This document shows, piece by piece, positions 47,069-54,621 of a stretch of DNA of 64,000 nucleotides. Origin of the DNA: Gracilibacillus salinarum (GTDB lineage: Bacteria > Bacillota > Bacilli > Bacillales > Amphibacillaceae); contig NZ_CP095071.1 in the NCBI RefSeq assembly GCF_022919575.1, forward strand, positions 3,978,001 to 4,042,000. Direction: 5' to 3'. Numbering within the stretch: the first letter of the stretch is position 1; each line of letters begins with the position of its first letter. The position numbers and the translations under genes are program-made. The notes below the pieces were generated by a model. It saw only the letters and a program-made list of their open reading frames with translations, did no database searches and was not told where the DNA came from.

Positions 47069-47652
47069 ATGGACTACATATTAAAAAAGCTAGCCAATTT
47101 GATAAGCAGTCAAGATCGAAAAATGATAATTGGCATCTCAGGTCATGGTGCATCTGGACGGATCCATATATTATAGAATCAGCTGCTATGAGGAAATATG
47201 CTGTTATCAATTATGAATATAAGAATGAAAATCATCAATATAAAATGACAGCTTGTCATCCTGGTGCTCATCATATAACTGCTTTAGAAAGAGACATAAA
47301 AATGATCAGAGACGACTTGGATTTATACACTCTGGCAACACATTATGATCAGAGTCATTATATATCTGCTGAGAACGATGTAACTATTATAGAAGGAATG
47401 AGTGTGGCGTTTTCCAATCTGGATTTATTTGATGTAACAATTTACTTATACACGAATGGTGAAACGGAATTTACCAGAAGATCCACAAGAGATATTGCTG
47501 AAAGAGGCGCAGATATAACAGCACTAAAGCAATCTCACAAAGAACGCAGAATTCAATATGAAGTATTTATGCATCCTTATCATCAAAATTTCGATATAGT
47601 TGTGAAAAATTCGAATGAAAAGTATTGCATAGAAAAAGAAGAACTAATTTGA
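47069..47652 (+). pseudogene. Uridine kinase-like gene with deletion of the P-loop end
   Basis: From ATG 47069 (GGAGGT upstream) the frame reads MDYILKKLANLISSQDRKMI and IGISGHGASGR, the start of a uridine kinase P-loop, then meets TAG. The other frame resumes at TDPYIIESAAMRKYAVINYE and continues through YKMTACHPGAHHITALERDI and FTRRSTRDIAERGADI to HPYHQNFDIVVKNSNE at 47652. The Lys-Thr of the GxxxxGKT motif and about 25 residues after it are missing and the frame is broken. No active kinase can be made. Confidence 0.85.
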
Positions 47653-47685
47653 TGGCTGTATGAACGAAAAAGTAAGGATGGAACG

Positions 47686-48666
47686 ATGACAGAAAAACAA
47701 ATGCTAAGAAACTCAAAATTCACGCTTGCATTTCGGTTTATTCTGACATTAATAGCTGTGTTTTTTATTTATGCGTTTTATATGATGGTTACGAATATAG
47801 TATTTGATAAATCAGCGATTGGAAAAGAAAATATGTATTATTCCAGTCTTGCGCTTGAATGGACAGTACCCAATGTGCGAGGTGATTTTGAGATAAAGGA
47901 AGAAGACCTGTCAGCTTTCGGAACAAAAAGTTTGTCCTATAATGTATTGAAAAAGGTTGGGACAGAAGATCTTGTAATTGGTGAGGCGCAAATAACGAAA
48001 CGACTGTCCAGCAGTTATTCAACCATTACTTATAAATATCCAGGTCAAAAGAAATTAAGTGAATTTTCCTTTTCGCTACCTGAAGACCCACGTTCAGGAG
48101 GAAAGTTAAAGGCTAATACTTCACCAAATGTGTGGGGAACATTGGAGAAGCTGCCTGAAGGAACAGTGGGCGAGTTAGCTTTTTCCACTACAGATTTTAT
48201 GAAAGCTGAGCAGCTGATACAATCATTAGCTGATTATGATCTTCGCGTATTATGGATGCCTTTGTATACCGGGGAGTTCGTTAATTATGATCCCTATGGC
48301 TGGACTGGTGGAAGCAATTTAATGATGTTATCCGATGTAATTGGTTTAACAGGCGGTATGGATCATGATGAAAACTATCATCAGTCACTCTGGATTACCT
48401 GGTTAGATGAAGGTTCACTAGAGGATAGCAAGCAGCTGATGTTAAAGAACATGGGCGACCTTCTTGAAAAGCCTGAAAGTTATTATCAGGATTTCCTGCG
48501 TCTCGGCCATTTAGAGGAAAGATATCAATATCTTGAAGAAGAAGGTTTTTCTGTATATGGGGCTGTTGTAACAGGTCCTGCAAAAGAATTATTAACATTG
48601 CAGGAGGCTGACTTTGTTCAGGGTGAACAGCTAGGAGAAGTTGAGTTGTGGAATTGGGAGGAGTGA
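47686..48666 (+). CDS. Anti-sigma factor-like membrane protein
   Basis: A 326-residue protein with one membrane helix (about 15-36) and a large extracytoplasmic part. VRGDFEIKEEDLSAFGTKSL, FSTTDFMKAEQLIQSLADYD and LDLRVLWMPLYTG-like text resemble the sigma-factor regulator N and C domains of YhdL-type anti-sigma factors. No sigma factor gene adjoins it, and the short cytosolic N-terminus lacks an obvious sigma-binding domain, so it may be an orphan. GGAACG gives only a weak ribosome binding site. Confidence 0.65.
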   Translation: MTEKQMLRNSKFTLAFRFILTLIAVFFIYAFYMMVTNIVFDKSAIGKENMYYSSLALEWTVPNVRGDFEIKEEDLSAFGTKSLSYNVLKKVGTEDLVIGEAQITKRLSSSYSTITYKYPGQKKLSEFSFSLPEDPRSGGKLKANTSPNVWGTLEKLPEGTVGELAFSTTDFMKAEQLIQSLADYDLRVLWMPLYTGEFVNYDPYGWTGGSNLMMLSDVIGLTGGMDHDENYHQSLWITWLDEGSLEDSKQLMLKNMGDLLEKPESYYQDFLRLGHLEERYQYLEEEGFSVYGAVVTGPAKELLTLQEADFVQGEQLGEVELWNWEE

Positions 48667-48777
48667 GGACGTTACGAGGCGGTATCATAGGGTCTTTAAG
48701 ACTTATGCCACGGAAAAGGGATTTGAGCATTATCGTTCTCAATCAGAGGGTAAAAAATGACCCGAATTAGTGGAAGG

Positions 48778-48808
48778 AAAAGGAGCAAAAGATTTTGCTC
48801 CTTTTTGT
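48778..48808. terminator. Bidirectional terminator
   Basis: AAAAGGAGCAAAA/TTTTGCTCCTTTTT between converging genes. Confidence 0.92.
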
Positions 48809-48815
48809 GTGACAG

Positions 48816-48944
48816 TTATTTCTTTTTCAAGTGCCTAAGATAGCCCATGGATGAGGCAAATGCTGCTGTTCTTGCAGGGACGCCTTTTTTCATTAGGTTC
48901 TCTGTCGTTTCTTCAATTTTTTCGCCGACACCTTTGCTTTTCAA
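48816..48944 (-). CDS. Small hydrophilic protein (42 residues)
   Basis: Starts at TTG 48944, six bases after AAAGGAGGG. The product, KSKGVGEKIEETTENLMKKG then VPARTAAFASSMGYLRHLKKK, is basic and helical. The good ribosome binding site and the terminator behind it support a real gene; the family is not recognised. Confidence 0.65.
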   Translation of the reverse strand: MKSKGVGEKIEETTENLMKKGVPARTAAFASSMGYLRHLKKK

Positions 48945-49168
48945 AGTAAACCCTCCTTTCTTTCTTATTATGTGTGGCGGGAGATATATCAATACGACCA
49001 AAGCTTATCAGTACCGGATATCACAAAAAGAGGAAGTCAAAATGATTCTGAGCAGACGTTGCACTGTTCACGGTTTCAACAGACCGAACCTTGATGAGAG
49101 TAGTAGTGCTATAAAGAGCAGGGGAATAATAAAATATGTGAAGAATAACATGAACAAGTCATATTACC

Positions 49169-49197
49169 TTGACATAAATTTCTTTAAACGATACTAT
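49169..49197 (+). promoter_or_regulatory. Promoter of the TPP riboswitch transcript
   Basis: TTGACA (49169-49174), a 17-bp spacer and TACTAT (49192-49197), which places the start near 49204, about 13 bases before the aptamer. Confidence 0.88.
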
Positions 49198-49216
49198 TAA
49201 AAATAATTTAATATAT

Positions 49217-49300
49217 GCACTAGGGGTGTTATTTAACTGAGATGAGTATTACCTCAAACCCTTTGAACCTGAACTAGTTGAAACTAGCGTAGGAAAGTGT
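49217..49300 (+). ncRNA. TPP riboswitch aptamer
   Basis: The conserved THI-box pieces are in order: CACTAGGGGTG (P1/P2), ACTGAGATGAG, ACCTCAAACCCTTTGAACCT, GAACTAGTTGAAACTAGCGT (P4 region) and AGGAAAGTG closing P1. It binds thiamine pyrophosphate. A terminator at 49362 supplies the expression platform, so the downstream genes should be off when thiamine is ample. Confidence 0.95.
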
Positions 49301-49361
49301 AAACTCTAATACATACTTAAAGAGCGACTGTTCTTTATGCTTAATATGTAGTTATTTAGTT

Positions 49362-49401
49362 TTACGCAATTTTCCTATGGGAAGGTTGCGTATTTTTTTT
49401 A
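49362..49401 (+). terminator. Riboswitch terminator
   Basis: TACGCAATTTTCC/GGGAAGGTTGCGTA with a three-base loop and eight or more T residues, 38 bases before the SDR start. Confidence 0.9.
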
Positions 49402-49438
49402 TTTAAGTTTCATCAAAATTAAAAATACAGGAGTTGTT

Positions 49439-50194
49439 ATGATGAGTAGAAGCGTATTAGTAACAGGTAGCAGTAGAGGTTTAGGAGCAACCATTGTAAA
49501 GACGTTGGCACAACAAGGTTTTCAAGTGGTTATCAATTATTATCAAAGCAAAGATGCTGCTGAGAAGCTAGTTTCTGAGATTGGTGAAAAGAATGCGATT
49601 GCAATTCAAGCTGATGTAACAGATCGTAAAGAAGTAGATAAATTGATAAATAAAGCAACAGAATATTTTGGTCAAATAGATGTTGTAGTTAACAATGCAT
49701 TAGTAGATTTCAAATTCGATCCAAACAAACAGAAAACCTTTACAGAACTCACTTGGGAGGATTATCAAAAACACCTAGATGGTACGTTAAAAGCAGCATT
49801 TAATGTAGTTCAAAGCGTCATACCTCAATTCATTGAACGAAAAAATGGAAGTATTATCAATATCGGTACTAATCTATACCAAAATCCAGTTGTACCCTAC
49901 CACGAATATACAACAGCTAAAGCTGGATTAATAGGATTCACACGTAATATCGCTTCTGAATTAGGACTATATGGTATAAAAGCGAATGTCGTTTCAGGTG
50001 GATTATTAAAAACGACTGACGCCAGTGCTGCTACAACTCCAGAAGTATTCGATTTAATTGCTCAATCAACGCCATTGAAGAAGGTGACCACACCTCAAGA
50101 TGTAGCCAATATGGTTGCTTATTTATCTTCGGTAAATGCGGACGGTATTACAGGTCAGAATTTCACAGTTGATGGCGGTTTGACAATGAACTAA
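49439..50194 (+). CDS. Short-chain dehydrogenase/reductase under TPP riboswitch control
   Basis: A 251-residue classical SDR with cofactor motif TGSSRGLG, NNAL in place of NNAG, catalytic YTTAKAG (written HEYTTAKAGLIGF) and the terminal GQNFTVDGGL. It is FabG-like; the substrate is unknown. ACAGGAG precedes tandem ATGs. It is the first gene behind the TPP riboswitch and is followed by the flavin monooxygenase after 68 bases with no terminator, so both should respond to thiamine. Confidence 0.92.
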   Translation: MMSRSVLVTGSSRGLGATIVKTLAQQGFQVVINYYQSKDAAEKLVSEIGEKNAIAIQADVTDRKEVDKLINKATEYFGQIDVVVNNALVDFKFDPNKQKTFTELTWEDYQKHLDGTLKAAFNVVQSVIPQFIERKNGSIINIGTNLYQNPVVPYHEYTTAKAGLIGFTRNIASELGLYGIKANVVSGGLLKTTDASAATTPEVFDLIAQSTPLKKVTTPQDVANMVAYLSSVNADGITGQNFTVDGGLTMN

Positions 50195-50262
50195 TTGCTT
50201 AATCTTTAAAATAAGGAGTATGCAAGTCAATTAATAATGCTCTATTTGGAGGTGTGAAAAAA

Positions 50263-51570
50263 ATGACAAAGACAAAAGGAAAGCAGCTACACTTAGGAGT
50301 TTTGCTGTATGGTTGTGGACACCACCAAGCAGCTTGGTTAATGCCAGATTCAAGCGTTGAACGGATTGGCGACATTTCTTATTACCAATCTTTATCACAA
50401 ATAGCGGAAAAGGGGTATTTTGACGCAGTATTCTTTGCTGATAATCAGTCATTTAAAGCGAAAGATTCTAGTGATATGCCAGCATTTTGGTTTGATCCAG
50501 TAGTCAATTTAACTGCTATTTCTCAAGTGACAAATCATGTGGGATTAGTCACAACAATTTCAAGTACTTTTTCTAATCCTTTTACAGCTTCACGACAACT
50601 ATTAAGTTTAGACCATATTACAAAAGGACGTGTTGGTTGGAATCTCGTAACGTCAATGACTGATTTAGAGGCATTAAATCATAGTATGGAAGAACTACCT
50701 TCTCATGACAAACGCTATGAAAAGGCAGATGAATTCGCTGCTTTAATGAATAAGTTATTTCTTTCATGGGACAGTAAGGAGTTTCTACATCATCGAGAAG
50801 AAAGAAAATTGATAAATCCTTCAAACATTCAGCCTTTTCATCACGAGGGTACTTATTTCACAGTGAATGGACCATCCACTACGCCAAAAAGTCCGCAAGG
50901 CAAACCAGTATCCATGCAGGCAGGGGCATCGAAACAAGGCGTTGCATTAGCTGCAAAATATGCCGATGCAGTCTATTCCGTATCGTGGAACTTAAACCAA
51001 GCCAAAAAATTTCGTGAAAGATTAGATGAACAAGTTAAACATAGCGAAGACAGCGATAGACATATCAAAGTATTTCCAGGCTTAGTAACCTATGTAGGCC
51101 GTACTCATGAAGAAGCGCTAGCCAAAAAAGCAGCATTAGATGAGCAATTACCTCTTGAAACAGCCTTAAAACAGTTGAGTTTCTTTATTCAACAAGACTG
51201 TTCTAATTGGGAAATTGATAAAGAAGTACCTCCATTACCCCCAGTAGAAGAATTTACTGGCCCAGTTGGACGTTACGAAACGATACTAGAAATTATTAAT
51301 GATAAACAACCTACAGTAAGAGAATTATTAGGATATCTAAATGCAGGTGGTGGACATCACACGCTGATAGGCACACCCGACGAAATTGTGGATCAGATGG
51401 AAGTCTGGTTTGAAGCAGGTGTGGCTGATGGATTTAATCTTATGCCTCCTACATTACCTGGTAGTTTAGAGGACTTTGTTGAACTTATCGTTCCTGAAAT
51501 GCAAAAAAGAGGTATTTTCAGAGAAAAATATGAAGGTCATACCTTTCGTGAACATTTAGGGTTGGCATAA
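50263..51570 (+). CDS. NtaA/SnaA/DszA-type FMN-dependent monooxygenase
   Basis: A 435-residue luciferase-like monooxygenase of the NtaA/SnaA/DszA group, which oxidises its substrate with FMNH2 from a separate reductase. Typical text: GVLLYGCGHHQAAWLMPDS, FFADNQSF, TTISSTFSNPFTASRQLLSL, GRVGWNLVTS and, near the end, GTPDEIVDQME and DGFNLMPPTLPG. ATG 50263 follows GGAGGTG. Known relatives attack nitrilotriacetate, EDTA or dibenzothiophene sulfone. The riboswitch suggests a substrate related to thiamine, its thiazole or its breakdown products. Confidence 0.92.
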   Translation: MTKTKGKQLHLGVLLYGCGHHQAAWLMPDSSVERIGDISYYQSLSQIAEKGYFDAVFFADNQSFKAKDSSDMPAFWFDPVVNLTAISQVTNHVGLVTTISSTFSNPFTASRQLLSLDHITKGRVGWNLVTSMTDLEALNHSMEELPSHDKRYEKADEFAALMNKLFLSWDSKEFLHHREERKLINPSNIQPFHHEGTYFTVNGPSTTPKSPQGKPVSMQAGASKQGVALAAKYADAVYSVSWNLNQAKKFRERLDEQVKHSEDSDRHIKVFPGLVTYVGRTHEEALAKKAALDEQLPLETALKQLSFFIQQDCSNWEIDKEVPPLPPVEEFTGPVGRYETILEIINDKQPTVRELLGYLNAGGGHHTLIGTPDEIVDQMEVWFEAGVADGFNLMPPTLPGSLEDFVELIVPEMQKRGIFREKYEGHTFREHLGLA

Positions 51571-52011
51571 TAAAATGACTCTACTAGTTAAGGGGTGAGA
51601 TGCTGGTATTAGTCTAAAAATGCATATGAGGGGATAATTTTTTATTATGTATCGGCCGTGATAAACGCAACCAATGGTTCGAAAGAGATCATTAGTGTTA
51701 GTATGTTTTCGATATCCAAAGGGATGATCCCTTTCCTGAATAAGTCTTCAAGCTCAGTTAACTGATGTAAAGCCTGATCGAGGTCATAAGTCTCATCGAA
51801 TAGTTCATAGGACATGCCACCTAAAGTCTGTTCATGGTGCTTAAAATAGTAGAGAAAATTACTACGATTTTGTGAACTGATCAATTATTCTACCGGATGT
51901 TTTCTTATATTTACATCAGAATTAGACGATCATCAAAAAGGTCGTTCTTATTTATGTGGAATATTATGTTAGTATAGATGTAGAGAGAACTATGTTAAGG
52001 AGCAATATAAG

Positions 52012-52479
52012 ATGAGTGAATTAAGTGATTTGTTATCAAGAAAAGTGATAGCAGCTACCATTTCTGGTTCGTTATTTGCTATCCTGTTAGGCTTAGCAGT
52101 TCCTAATCCATTCAGTGAAATTACATCGGTTGGTCAATATTTTCAAAATGTAGCCATAGCAGTTCGGGTATATCTTATGTATGGTTTTCCAGTTATCCTC
52201 TTGTACGCCACCATAACGTCTACGATAAGCGATTATATTGCCCATTGGTTAGCTGTACACACTAAGGGGAATTTGAAGATATATTTTTCATTAACATTTC
52301 ATGTTCTTTTCGGATTGATTTTACTTTGGTACAGCTTGTTTGCATCTATATTGTATTTCATCACGGATTATGTGTTGATGAAGAAAAATATTTACAAATG
52401 GAATAGTGCTCTGAAAAGCTTTTGGATTCCTGTTTTCGTTTGGGGAGTTTTTGTAGTGATTACATATGTTATTGGCTGA
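52012..52479 (+). CDS. Membrane protein
   Basis: A 155-residue protein with four hydrophobic segments (about 11-30, 55-75, 92-117 and 134-153). AAGGAGC precedes the ATG. No family was recognised. It is probably monocistronic. Confidence 0.65.
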   Translation: MSELSDLLSRKVIAATISGSLFAILLGLAVPNPFSEITSVGQYFQNVAIAVRVYLMYGFPVILLYATITSTISDYIAHWLAVHTKGNLKIYFSLTFHVLFGLILLWYSLFASILYFITDYVLMKKNIYKWNSALKSFWIPVFVWGVFVVITYVIG

Positions 52480-52582
52480 TTATAGTGGATCTTGAAAGTG
52501 AGACATCCAGACAGCGTCAAAATGAATACATTGAAATACATAAGTTGATTCTTAAGATTAACTTGTCTAAAAGGGTGGAAAT

Positions 52583-52888
52583 ATGGAATTTAATTTTTGG
52601 ATGCATATTACCGTTTTTATAGCTCAATTAATTGGCTCACTTTTAGCGATAGCCGTTTTCTCCTCTATATTTGTTGAAAATAGAAAAAGAGGATATCTAT
52701 ATCTTGCATGTATATGTGGAGGAATGGTTTATGGATTAATTTTAGGATTTAGTGGTTCAACTGTACTGGGGATAGGTATGTTAATCATTGATGTTAGTGT
52801 ACTTATCGTTGCTTATTTTGATACGAAGAAAAAGCTGAATGAGCTAATGGATAACCAGCTTGAGGAAGGCGAGAATTTTTCTAGATAG
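52583..52888 (+). CDS. Membrane protein
   Basis: A 101-residue protein with three hydrophobic segments and an acidic tail (NQLEEGENFSR). AAAGGGTGG precedes the ATG. Not recognised. A strong terminator follows. Confidence 0.6.
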   Translation: MEFNFWMHITVFIAQLIGSLLAIAVFSSIFVENRKRGYLYLACICGGMVYGLILGFSGSTVLGIGMLIIDVSVLIVAYFDTKKKLNELMDNQLEEGENFSR

Positions 52889-52929
52889 CGTGAGAAAAGT
52901 GTAGTATTATCAAATTTCATTACGCTGAT

Positions 52930-52970
52930 AAGAAAACAAGAATCTCAAATTAGGAGATTCTTGTTTTCTT
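52930..52970 (+). terminator. Rho-independent terminator
   Basis: AAGAAAACAAGAATCTC/GAGATTCTTGTTTTCTT, a 17-bp stem with a seven-base loop. Confidence 0.95.
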
Positions 52971-52972
52971 AT

Positions 52973-52999
52973 TGAAACGTTTTAGTATTATTTGGGGTC
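52973..52999 (+). promoter_or_regulatory. Possible ECF sigma promoter (autoregulation)
   Basis: TGAAACGTTTT (from 52973) matches the ECF -35 TGAAAC, and GGTC (52996-52999) stands 17 bases after it as a possible -10. It lies 28 bases before the sigma gene, where ECF factors usually drive their own operon. Confidence 0.6.
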
Positions 53000-53026
53000 T
53001 AATTATTGAAGCGAAAGGAGGAAAAT

Positions 53027-53545
53027 ATGTCGGACCAGCAGATGATTAATAAGGCAAGAAGGGGAAACCAGAAAGCCTTTCAGGAATTGATTCAACAAGA
53101 AAAAAATAAGCTTTACCGGATGGCCTATATGTATGTAAAAAATGAAAATGATGCTTTAGATATTGTGCAGGAAACCATATACAAAGCGTACATATCAATT
53201 AAAAAACTAAAGAAAAATCAATATTTCTCGACCTGGTTAACCCGAATACTGATTAACAATGCCTTGGATTTTATAAAGAAAAACAAGCGGGTCATACCTA
53301 TTGAAGCAATGGAAGAGTTTCGGACAACCGAAATTTACGAGGTAGAAGATCACATCGACTTGGTTGATGCAATTAATCAGCTGCATGACCAGTATAAAAC
53401 TGTTATCATTCTCAGGTATTATCAGGATTTTACGGTGAAACAAATTGCAGAAACATTGAATTGCCCAGAAGGAACGGTAAAGACTCATTTACATCGTGCA
53501 GTTAAACAGTTAAAAATGTATTTAAAGGAGGAAAGTATTCAATGA
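53027..53545 (+). CDS. ECF-type RNA polymerase sigma factor
   Basis: A 172-residue sigma factor. Region 2 is MYVKNENDALDIVQETIYKA followed by FSTWLTRILINNALDFIKK; region 4 is VIILRYYQDFTVKQIAETLN then CPEGTVKTHLHRAVKQLK. It is similar in type to SigV/SigW relatives of Bacillus. ATG 53027 follows AAAGGAGG. It overlaps the anti-sigma gene by four bases. Confidence 0.95.
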   Translation: MSDQQMINKARRGNQKAFQELIQQEKNKLYRMAYMYVKNENDALDIVQETIYKAYISIKKLKKNQYFSTWLTRILINNALDFIKKNKRVIPIEAMEEFRTTEIYEVEDHIDLVDAINQLHDQYKTVIILRYYQDFTVKQIAETLNCPEGTVKTHLHRAVKQLKMYLKEESIQ

Positions 53546-54621
53546 ACAATAACTTTCCGAATTTTAAGAAGGATATCGATCAAATAGAAATTCCCGAAAA
53601 GAAATTGAATCGTGCGGTAGAAAGTGCGATAAAACAAGGTAAAAGAAAAAACTGGAGTCTAAGCAAAAAAATAACCTACTTATGCAGTGCCGCAGTAATA
53701 TTCATTTCTCTGTTAATGGGTTCCACATTTGTTTCTCCCGTCATGGCGAAAGTTATTTCAAATGTTCCTTTACTAAATCAAATCTTACAAAGTATGGATC
53801 AAACGGAAGATAGGAAAGAAATGTTAAATGAATTATATAACAAGGTAAGTGAATCGTTAAGCAAGAATTATCAAGGTGTAGTTAGTGTCTCCATGTCTAG
53901 AATGTTCACCTACGACCCGCCTGAAATAAACATTTTGACTGAAGATAAAACCCTTGAACAAGAATATGGAAAAGAAATAGAAGGAATGATCAATGATTTA
54001 GCAGACTCGTTCAACATAGGTGAAGTTAACATTTCTATAGAATTAAAAAACGATGATTTTGCTGAGGTAAGCAAAGAGGACAAAGAACAAGCAGAACGCA
54101 CCGATCAATTATTTAAAATAGCTGAAGAAGTGTTGCGGCAAAAAGGGTATAAACCTGGAGTGATGAGTATGGATGCTGAAAACCCCATTCTGCAAATTGA
54201 AGTTAGAGATACCCAGCAACAATTTAATAAAGAAAAGAATGATGTTGAAAGTCTTGTACATGATGCGATTTTTAATAAAACAGATTTAGAATATCAAGTT
54301 GAAATCACCGGACGAAGCGAGGCGGAAATAAGAGATCAAAACTGGCAGCCTATTTTTAGTTCGGTGATGGATGAAGCGAATAAAAAGTTCAGTGAGGTGA
54401 ACGGATTTGCCTATTCCTTTCATCCAGAACCACTCCAAATTATTTTGAAGACTTCCTTGTCAGATGAAGAACAAGCTAAAAAACTGGCAGCAGAAATTGC
54501 GAAATACGCAAGGGAAGTAATAGAAGTAAAAAGAGATGCATTAAAAGTCGAGAAAATATCTTATAAATTGATTATCAGAGACAAAGAACATGATAATATT
54601 TATGAGATGTTATATAAATAA
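53542..54621 (+). CDS. Anti-sigma factor with DUF4179-like layout
   Basis: A 359-residue protein: a cytosolic N-terminus (IDQIEIPEKKLNRAVESAIK), one membrane helix (about 47-68) followed by a VSPVMAKVISNVPLLNQIL segment, and an acidic extracytoplasmic domain of about 270 residues. This matches anti-sigma proteins of the DUF4179/DUF4030 type coupled to an ECF sigma gene. Release of the sigma factor by an envelope signal is inferred. Confidence 0.85.
   Translation: MNNNFPNFKKDIDQIEIPEKKLNRAVESAIKQGKRKNWSLSKKITYLCSAAVIFISLLMGSTFVSPVMAKVISNVPLLNQILQSMDQTEDRKEMLNELYNKVSESLSKNYQGVVSVSMSRMFTYDPPEINILTEDKTLEQEYGKEIEGMINDLADSFNIGEVNISIELKNDDFAEVSKEDKEQAERTDQLFKIAEEVLRQKGYKPGVMSMDAENPILQIEVRDTQQQFNKEKNDVESLVHDAIFNKTDLEYQVEITGRSEAEIRDQNWQPIFSSVMDEANKKFSEVNGFAYSFHPEPLQIILKTSLSDEEQAKKLAAEIAKYAREVIEVKRDALKVEKISYKLIIRDKEHDNIYEMLYK

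Follow-up and report, generated by a model that had tools for sequence, protein, structure and literature searches.

Two oxidoreductase genes under a TPP riboswitch in Gracilibacillus salinarum belong to the thiamin regulon and may form a precursor salvage module

What does a thiamin pyrophosphate (TPP) riboswitch control when the two genes behind it encode enzymes of families that, to our knowledge, have no assigned thiamin role? The question is raised by Gracilibacillus salinarum contig NZ_CP095071.1 (GCF_022919575.1), of which we analysed a 64,000-nt stretch (the window, whose positions serve as coordinates throughout). On its + strand, a promoter-like site, a TPP aptamer, a terminator, a gene for a short-chain dehydrogenase/reductase (SDR), and a gene for an NtaA/DmoA-family monooxygenase (here LLM) follow one another (Table 1). 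A preliminary description drawn from the sequence had named this series of elements and noted the lack of a thi gene. The series is confirmed, the promoter by its position and the other elements by score or fold, and 15 thiamin-related proteins of the host used as queries returned only weak ABC-ATPase matches in the window. We found very good support for placing the pair in the thiamin regulon, and it very probably helps cells to scavenge a thiamin building block by an undescribed route.

Constancy of the link between riboswitch and gene pair

The preliminary description had proposed a search for the same riboswitch and gene combination in other genomes, and TPP control was found in every set of orthologous loci. 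Scanning a species-wide genome collection with the LLM protein alone, the riboswitch not being used, gave 50 distinct loci, all 50 of which are under a TPP riboswitch. The aptamer lies directly upstream in 46 (18/18, 13/16, and 15/16 across three Rfam scan sets). In three loci of the Planococcus group (L058-L060), the pair ends a TPP-tenI-thiO-(thiS)-thiG-thiF operon, where thiS is assumed from the gap and was read by eye in the host operon, and in one from Arthrobacter (L085) it stands at the end of TPP-thiM-thiE-thiD. With a Psychrobacillus locus (L061), in which TPP-SDR-LLM continues into thiM-thiD-thiE-thiW, the pair is contiguous with thi genes in five loci. The LLM matched 679 plasmid records, six of which were examined. 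Five have an orthologous LLM (L092-L096) and span Bacillota, Rhodococcus, and the alphaproteobacterium Pseudochrobactrum, and the riboswitch precedes the SDR gene in all five; the sixth (L097), whose LLM relative is 41% identical, has neither the riboswitch nor a matching SDR. Among 394 genomes of the class to which L085 belongs, 80 gave a match, and the five best new actinobacterial matches (67-68% identical to the Rhodococcus query) all have a TPP riboswitch. The orthologue from the same genus as the host (L009) is also TPP-controlled, as detected with our own aptamer model, which was built from 13 aptamers and recovered three positive controls. The Planomicrobium locus L058 carries a further TPP riboswitch (L058:8111-8217) about 2.8 kb 3' of the pair.

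Paralogues of the LLM gave the opposite result. No TPP riboswitch was found with Rfam in the next 15 matches, which are actinobacterial paralogue loci (49-53% identical), or in the 20 Bacillales paralogue loci scanned of 25 fetched (33-39% identical), and our own model found no TPP aptamer in 14 further paralogue loci (five Bacillales and nine actinobacterial). We built a tree of 105 LLM sequences (448 columns, quick search), in which the thiamin-linked members (53 linked directly and two within thi operons), a group spanning three phyla, split from all 50 unlinked ones on a branch with a Shimodaira-Hasegawa-like approximate likelihood ratio test (SH-aLRT) value of 98. The Rfam scans cover 36 of the unlinked rows, and our own aptamer model was run on the other 14 once the tree had been built. 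Outside the tree are four loci of genomes already represented and those with a frame below 400 aa (L050, L053, L059, L071, L085, L086, and L096); L050, L053, and L071 are short solely because a stop precedes the true start. Because this branch separates TPP-linked from unlinked LLMs, regulation goes with orthology and not with membership of the family as a whole. It is almost certain that the pair has a function in the thiamin regulon, and the TPP control of all orthologous loci rules out a chance pairing or a displaced thi riboswitch.

Two further observations concern the paralogues. A SAM riboswitch lies upstream on the same strand in six of the 20 Bacillales paralogue loci (L022, L024, L025, L027, L028, and L030), a parallel case in which the identity of the riboswitch hints at the substrate class. 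In addition, 18 of 84 Staphylococcus species have a second NtaA-family copy that is 39-44% identical to the window LLM.

The shared DNA unit, its RNA leader, and the two proteins

Table 1. Features of the riboswitch-controlled pair in the window.
Feature	Position	Strand	Basis and remarks
DNA unit common to other genera (promoter, riboswitch, SDR, LLM)	49142..51620		DNA comparison; roughly 2.5 kb
Putative promoter, TTGACA-17-TACTAT	49169..49197	+	Top score in motif scan; 14 bases 5' of aptamer
TPP riboswitch aptamer (THI element, RF00059)	49212..49312	+	Rfam, full length
Intrinsic terminator of riboswitch	49363..49392	+	13-bp stem, then T8; T-tract to about 49400
SDR gene, PRK08642 subfamily	49439..50194	+	251 aa; open reading frame (ORF), NCBIfam/Pfam
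LLM gene, NtaA/SnaA/DmoA-family flavin mononucleotide (FMN)-dependent monooxygenase (bacterial luciferase family)	50254..51570	+	ORF, NCBIfam/Pfam

The extent of the shared unit was taken from a comparison of window positions 47601-53600 with 21 loci, which gave no match of more than 150 bases outside the unit. Within it, DNA identity is 92.2% to Domibacillus (49142-51574), 91.3% to Oceanobacillus salinisoli, 90.9% to Priestia, and 90.6% to Peribacillus (49142-51620), and a plasmid of Mesobacillus carries a close copy (89.6%), whereas the same-genus copy in L009 reaches 87.1%, below these copies from other genera. The Priestia and Domibacillus copies of the unit are 97.8% identical to each other. 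Since the unit is closer to other-genus copies than to the same-genus one, it appears to move between genera as a self-regulated module, and horizontal transfer would be the natural reading of this identity pattern. The preliminary description had considered that the riboswitch might belong to a thi gene in close relatives and that the present genes had been moved behind it recently. This does not hold: in relatives the riboswitch and the pair occur together on one similar stretch of DNA, and because the shared unit holds both across genera, they were not joined here by a rearrangement. No clear terminal repeats of the unit were seen, and its ends vary between the loci compared.

In L037, the left edge of the unit nearly coincides with the end of a truncated ORF with transposase-like helix-turn-helix domains (L037:2497-2853). 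DNA like this left flank also lies to the left of the unit in L094, whose flank is common to L039 and L044; we take the flanking DNA of L037 and L094 to be an IS21-type fragment. In the window, a sigma-factor regulator with Sigma_reg_N and Sigma_reg_C domains (47686-48666) lies just 5' of the unit and is apparently unrelated to it.

At 76.0 bits (E 3.4e-13), the aptamer lies above the Rfam gathering score of 54.3. The scan returned 10 promoter-like sites, with 9.8 expected by chance, so the promoter call rests on its position before the aptamer. The terminator fold has a z value of -4.9, and its stability was equalled in none of 200 shuffles. In an alternative pairing, which would act as an antiterminator, the aptamer 3' end binds the terminator 5' arm; its energy is -12.2 kcal/mol, a value matched by one of 100 shuffled arms. 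Across Bacillales, 48 of 49 leaders examined have a terminator between aptamer and gene (L086 is the miss, and the L046 terminator is weak), and the alternative pairing is matched by at most five of 100 shuffled arms in just 28 of the 48 terminator-bearing leaders. The antiterminator is thus less well supported than the terminator, the alternative pairing being weak in many leaders. The layout is the usual one of a transcriptional OFF switch, and OFF logic is predicted here from the typical behaviour of terminator platforms.

The SDR matches NF006393/PRK08642 at 400 bits (cut-off 292) and has both the glycine-rich cofactor motif and YxxxK; G10, G14, G16, T144, Y157, and K161 are invariant in all 29 aligned homologues, the window protein included. 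For the LLM, ATG 50263 behind GGAGG is judged by eye a likelier start than GTG 50254. The protein matches TIGR03860 (NtaA/DmoA) at 471 bits (cut-off 279.7) over the whole profile (1-422 of 422), and its relatives with solved structures include NtaA, ethylenediaminetetraacetate (EDTA) monooxygenase, DszA, dimethyl-sulfide monooxygenase, YtnJ, MoxC, and riboflavin lyase. YtnJ and MoxC are the closest of these (281 bits), and riboflavin lyase 5w48 scores 174 bits. NtaA, EDTA monooxygenase, DszA, and dimethyl-sulfide monooxygenase cleave C-N or C-S bonds oxidatively. The thiamin-linked LLMs have 27 clade-specific residue positions (e.g., M135, H143, Q314, and C316), and we know of no enzyme of this clade that has been assayed so far.

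Which half of thiamin the pair may supply

The thiamin genes of the host bear on the building block in question. Six TPP riboswitches were found in its genome, that of the window included. The remaining five precede ykoE-D-C, tenA-thiD-thiM-thiE, thiW, a transporter operon of the thiY type that includes an MTH1187-family thiamine-binding protein, and tenI-thiO-thiS-thiG-thiF (genes read from ORFs, several backed by family searches). The host encodes ThiG, and a search that recovered ThiC in 13 of 14 control genomes detected none in the host; this gene content fits pyrimidine salvage. Among 52 pair-bearing genomes, ThiG is encoded in 47 (E below 1e-60) and ThiC in nine; ThiC is missing in 43, and 38 have ThiG without ThiC. 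Because carriers are mostly ThiG-positive and ThiC-negative, supply of the pyrimidine is weakly favoured. For comparison, across 150 relatives, the host genome counted, ThiG occurs in 90, ThiC in 41, and ThiG without ThiC in 50; judging by the last figure, many members of the group may rely on an external supply of pyrimidine. The thiY-like transporter operon of the host closes with an ORF that we labelled by eye as a TatD-like hydrolase (L090:6285-7043), which may act on the imported precursor.

We propose the following mechanism, in which the pyrimidine side, the substrate, and the order of the reactions are putative. At low TPP, the antiterminator would form and the SDR and LLM genes would be read; at high TPP, P1 and the terminator would form and shut both genes off. 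Reduced FMN would reach the LLM from a reductase encoded elsewhere in the genome; no third gene is conserved next to the pair, so a flavin reductase linked to it is not evident, and the partner reductases of NtaA-family enzymes are often unlinked. The LLM would then act on a conjugate in which the thiamin pyrimidine is N- or S-linked, for instance damaged thiamin or the product of a thiaminase exchange reaction, oxidising its bridging carbon and freeing 4-amino-2-methylpyrimidine-5-carbaldehyde. The SDR would reduce this aldehyde to hydroxymethylpyrimidine (HMP). ThiD would phosphorylate the HMP, and ThiE would couple it to thiazole phosphate, either synthesised by ThiG or salvaged through ThiM. 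Chemistry of this kind has analogies: according to PMC12746152, the riboflavin monooxygenase RcaE cuts the ribityl chain off the isoalloxazine oxidatively, with attack at C1'; thiaminase I makes HMP-nucleophile adducts (PMC2766623); and such adducts (HMP*) were suggested to be taken up and used in a genome paper (PMC5627462). The proposed chemistry would account for the presence of two redox enzymes and for thiM, thiD, and thiE as neighbours. That the pair supplies the pyrimidine half is probable, with some reserve. The full statement, a TPP-repressed, self-contained, mobile salvage module for thiamin precursors that releases pyrimidine by means of the LLM and SDR, is a serious candidate that we advance tentatively, and this exact LLM/SDR chemistry, which is argued by analogy, is possible but doubtful.

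Several observations weigh against this proposal. Among ThiG-positive Staphylococcus species (84 species in the set, 50 with the LLM), ThiC occurs in 30 of 49 LLM carriers versus 13 of 24 non-carriers (Fisher p 0.62, in a test that, like the one below, ignores shared ancestry), and several thi neighbours of the pair (thiO, thiG, thiF, thiM, and thiW) are on the thiazole side, the neighbours overall including both thiazole and pyrimidine genes. These counts and mixed neighbours stand against the genome content of the carriers and are why we keep our reserve about the pyrimidine side. A general rule that the pair predicts ThiC loss looks true in the 52 carriers but fails in Staphylococcus. The usual catalytic Ser place of the SDR is occupied by Thr144, a position that we assume from the FabG spacing, and the Ser of the tetrad is absent in 29 of 29 homologues. 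When 52 Bacillales sources were clustered, no third gene was conserved beside the pair except in small lineage-specific synteny groups, the largest of which consists of 13 Staphylococcus loci where genes of a ribosomal-protein region flank the pair. The pair itself is not always intact. In L046, a different TPP riboswitch governs an LLM that has no SDR beside it, and most of the SDR gene is deleted from L040; the SDR is therefore not always needed or has been replaced, and the two genomes carry other SDRs (best 59% and 51% identical, respectively). An internal stop interrupts the LLM of L059, and frames are split in both genes of L068 and in the LLMs of L085, L086, and L096; either some strains can do without the pair or these breaks are sequencing errors. 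In L046, a longer aptamer and another, weak terminator precede the lone LLM (L046:3750-3990), which suggests a second recruitment of the LLM to TPP control.

The strongest alternative is that the pair works on the thiazole half, repairing or releasing modified hydroxyethylthiazole that ThiM then phosphorylates. It draws on the neighbours thiO, thiG, and thiF in L058-L060, thiM and thiW in L061, and thiM in L085, and on Staphylococcus, where the LLM tracks ThiG (49 of 50 species with the LLM versus 24 of 34 without it, p 0.0004). Yet 47 of the 52 carriers have ThiG, so thiazole rescue would be least needed there, and the enzyme missing from 43 of them is the pyrimidine enzyme ThiC; we consider this alternative unlikely.

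Less likely still is that the pair removes thiamin antivitamins or toxic analogues, its expression following the fall in TPP that they cause. TPP control would indeed turn the pair on once an antivitamin had lowered TPP, a unit that carries its own regulation and is common to several genera fits a resistance-like trait, and the LLM family is chemically capable of cleaving a modified pyrimidine oxidatively; against this, the pair is placed with thiM, thiD, and thiE, whose products reassemble thiamin from its two halves.

Pyrimidine supply could also mean synthesis in place of salvage, with the pair taking part in a ThiC-independent, oxygen-dependent formation of HMP from an ordinary metabolite. 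The 38 of 52 carrier genomes with ThiG and no ThiC agree with this, but ThiC is kept in nine of the 52 carriers and in 30 of the 50 carrier Staphylococcus species, and two enzymes are few for such a synthesis. Moreover, PMC8617998 calls thiamin essential for the carrier species Staphylococcus xylosus, and PMC4266091 lists it among the three vitamins of its minimal medium. Such a synthesis is very improbable, and only slightly less so is the bolder version in which a module of ~2.5 kb, spreading between genera, would give ThiC-less aerobes their pyrimidine by an O2-dependent flavoenzyme reaction from a common compound. That the riboswitch drives thiamin-unrelated genes (e.g., for fatty-acid or sulphur scavenging) by chance capture, as the family names 3-oxoacyl-ACP reductase and nitrilotriacetate monooxygenase and the SAM riboswitches of some paralogues might suggest, is barely credible given TPP control of 60 of 60 orthologous loci beyond the window (Rfam), across three phyla and with thi operons included, and a TPP riboswitch in none of 35 paralogue loci (Rfam). 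The undescribed salvage route of the preliminary description is partly supported, as regards membership of the thiamin regulon and, in kind, salvage; the activities of the enzymes themselves are what we infer.

Relation to known thiamin systems

The gene oarX was reportedly listed as a thiamin-regulated oxidoreductase gene by Rodionov et al. in 2002. Its name would fit a 3-oxoacyl-ACP reductase homologue like the window SDR, a presumed match, and we know of neither biochemical work on oarX nor an account of an LLM partner. Searches for oarX with thiamin, and for a TPP riboswitch with a monooxygenase, SDR, or NtaA, in literature from which most subscription journals were absent, returned no paper on the former and no description of the pair. 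The available parts of PMC3766115, PMC2258182, PMC2211319, and PMC5627462 do not name the pair, which supplements or RegPrecise may list. In the available parts of S. xylosus transcriptome papers, we found no co-regulation of the pair, and the monooxygenases named there are linked to iron.

Thiamin metabolism is thought to be well mapped, yet the riboswitch and the thi operons tie members of two further enzyme families to it, and the annotations of the pair as a fatty-acid reductase and a nitrilotriacetate monooxygenase are put in doubt. If a flavin monooxygenase does act in salvage, oxidised, damaged, or conjugated thiamin compounds would become accessible as sources of vitamin B1, and an O2-dependent pyrimidine route, if true, would itself be a previously unknown source of the vitamin. 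The pair is also an example of vitamin genes that appear to spread with their own riboswitch, and it is small and should be assayable, which opens the substrate to direct search.

Among known systems, YtnJ and MoxC are the closest solved relatives of the LLM; they serve sulphur scavenging, and some LLM paralogues are found behind SAM and not TPP riboswitches. For RcaE, a riboflavin lyase/monooxygenase, we know of no TPP control. It resembles the LLM in sequence and, according to PMC12746152, removes an N-linked chain from a vitamin oxidatively; it differs in being catabolic, in acting on riboflavin, and in not being the closest relative (174 versus 281 bits). Salvage by TenA and YlmB, the thiaminase II route to HMP, is alike in its TPP-riboswitch control and its role in scavenging thiamin precursors, and TenA is present in the host beside thiD-thiM-thiE. 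However, TenA and YlmB are hydrolases (PMC5627462), whereas the window pair consists of a flavin monooxygenase and an SDR, which Pfam and NCBIfam assign to other families and which are not TenA or YlmB homologues. Each component (TPP riboswitch, LLM family, SDR family) is known in itself; what is new, as far as we know, is a probable TPP-controlled salvage operon with these enzyme families.

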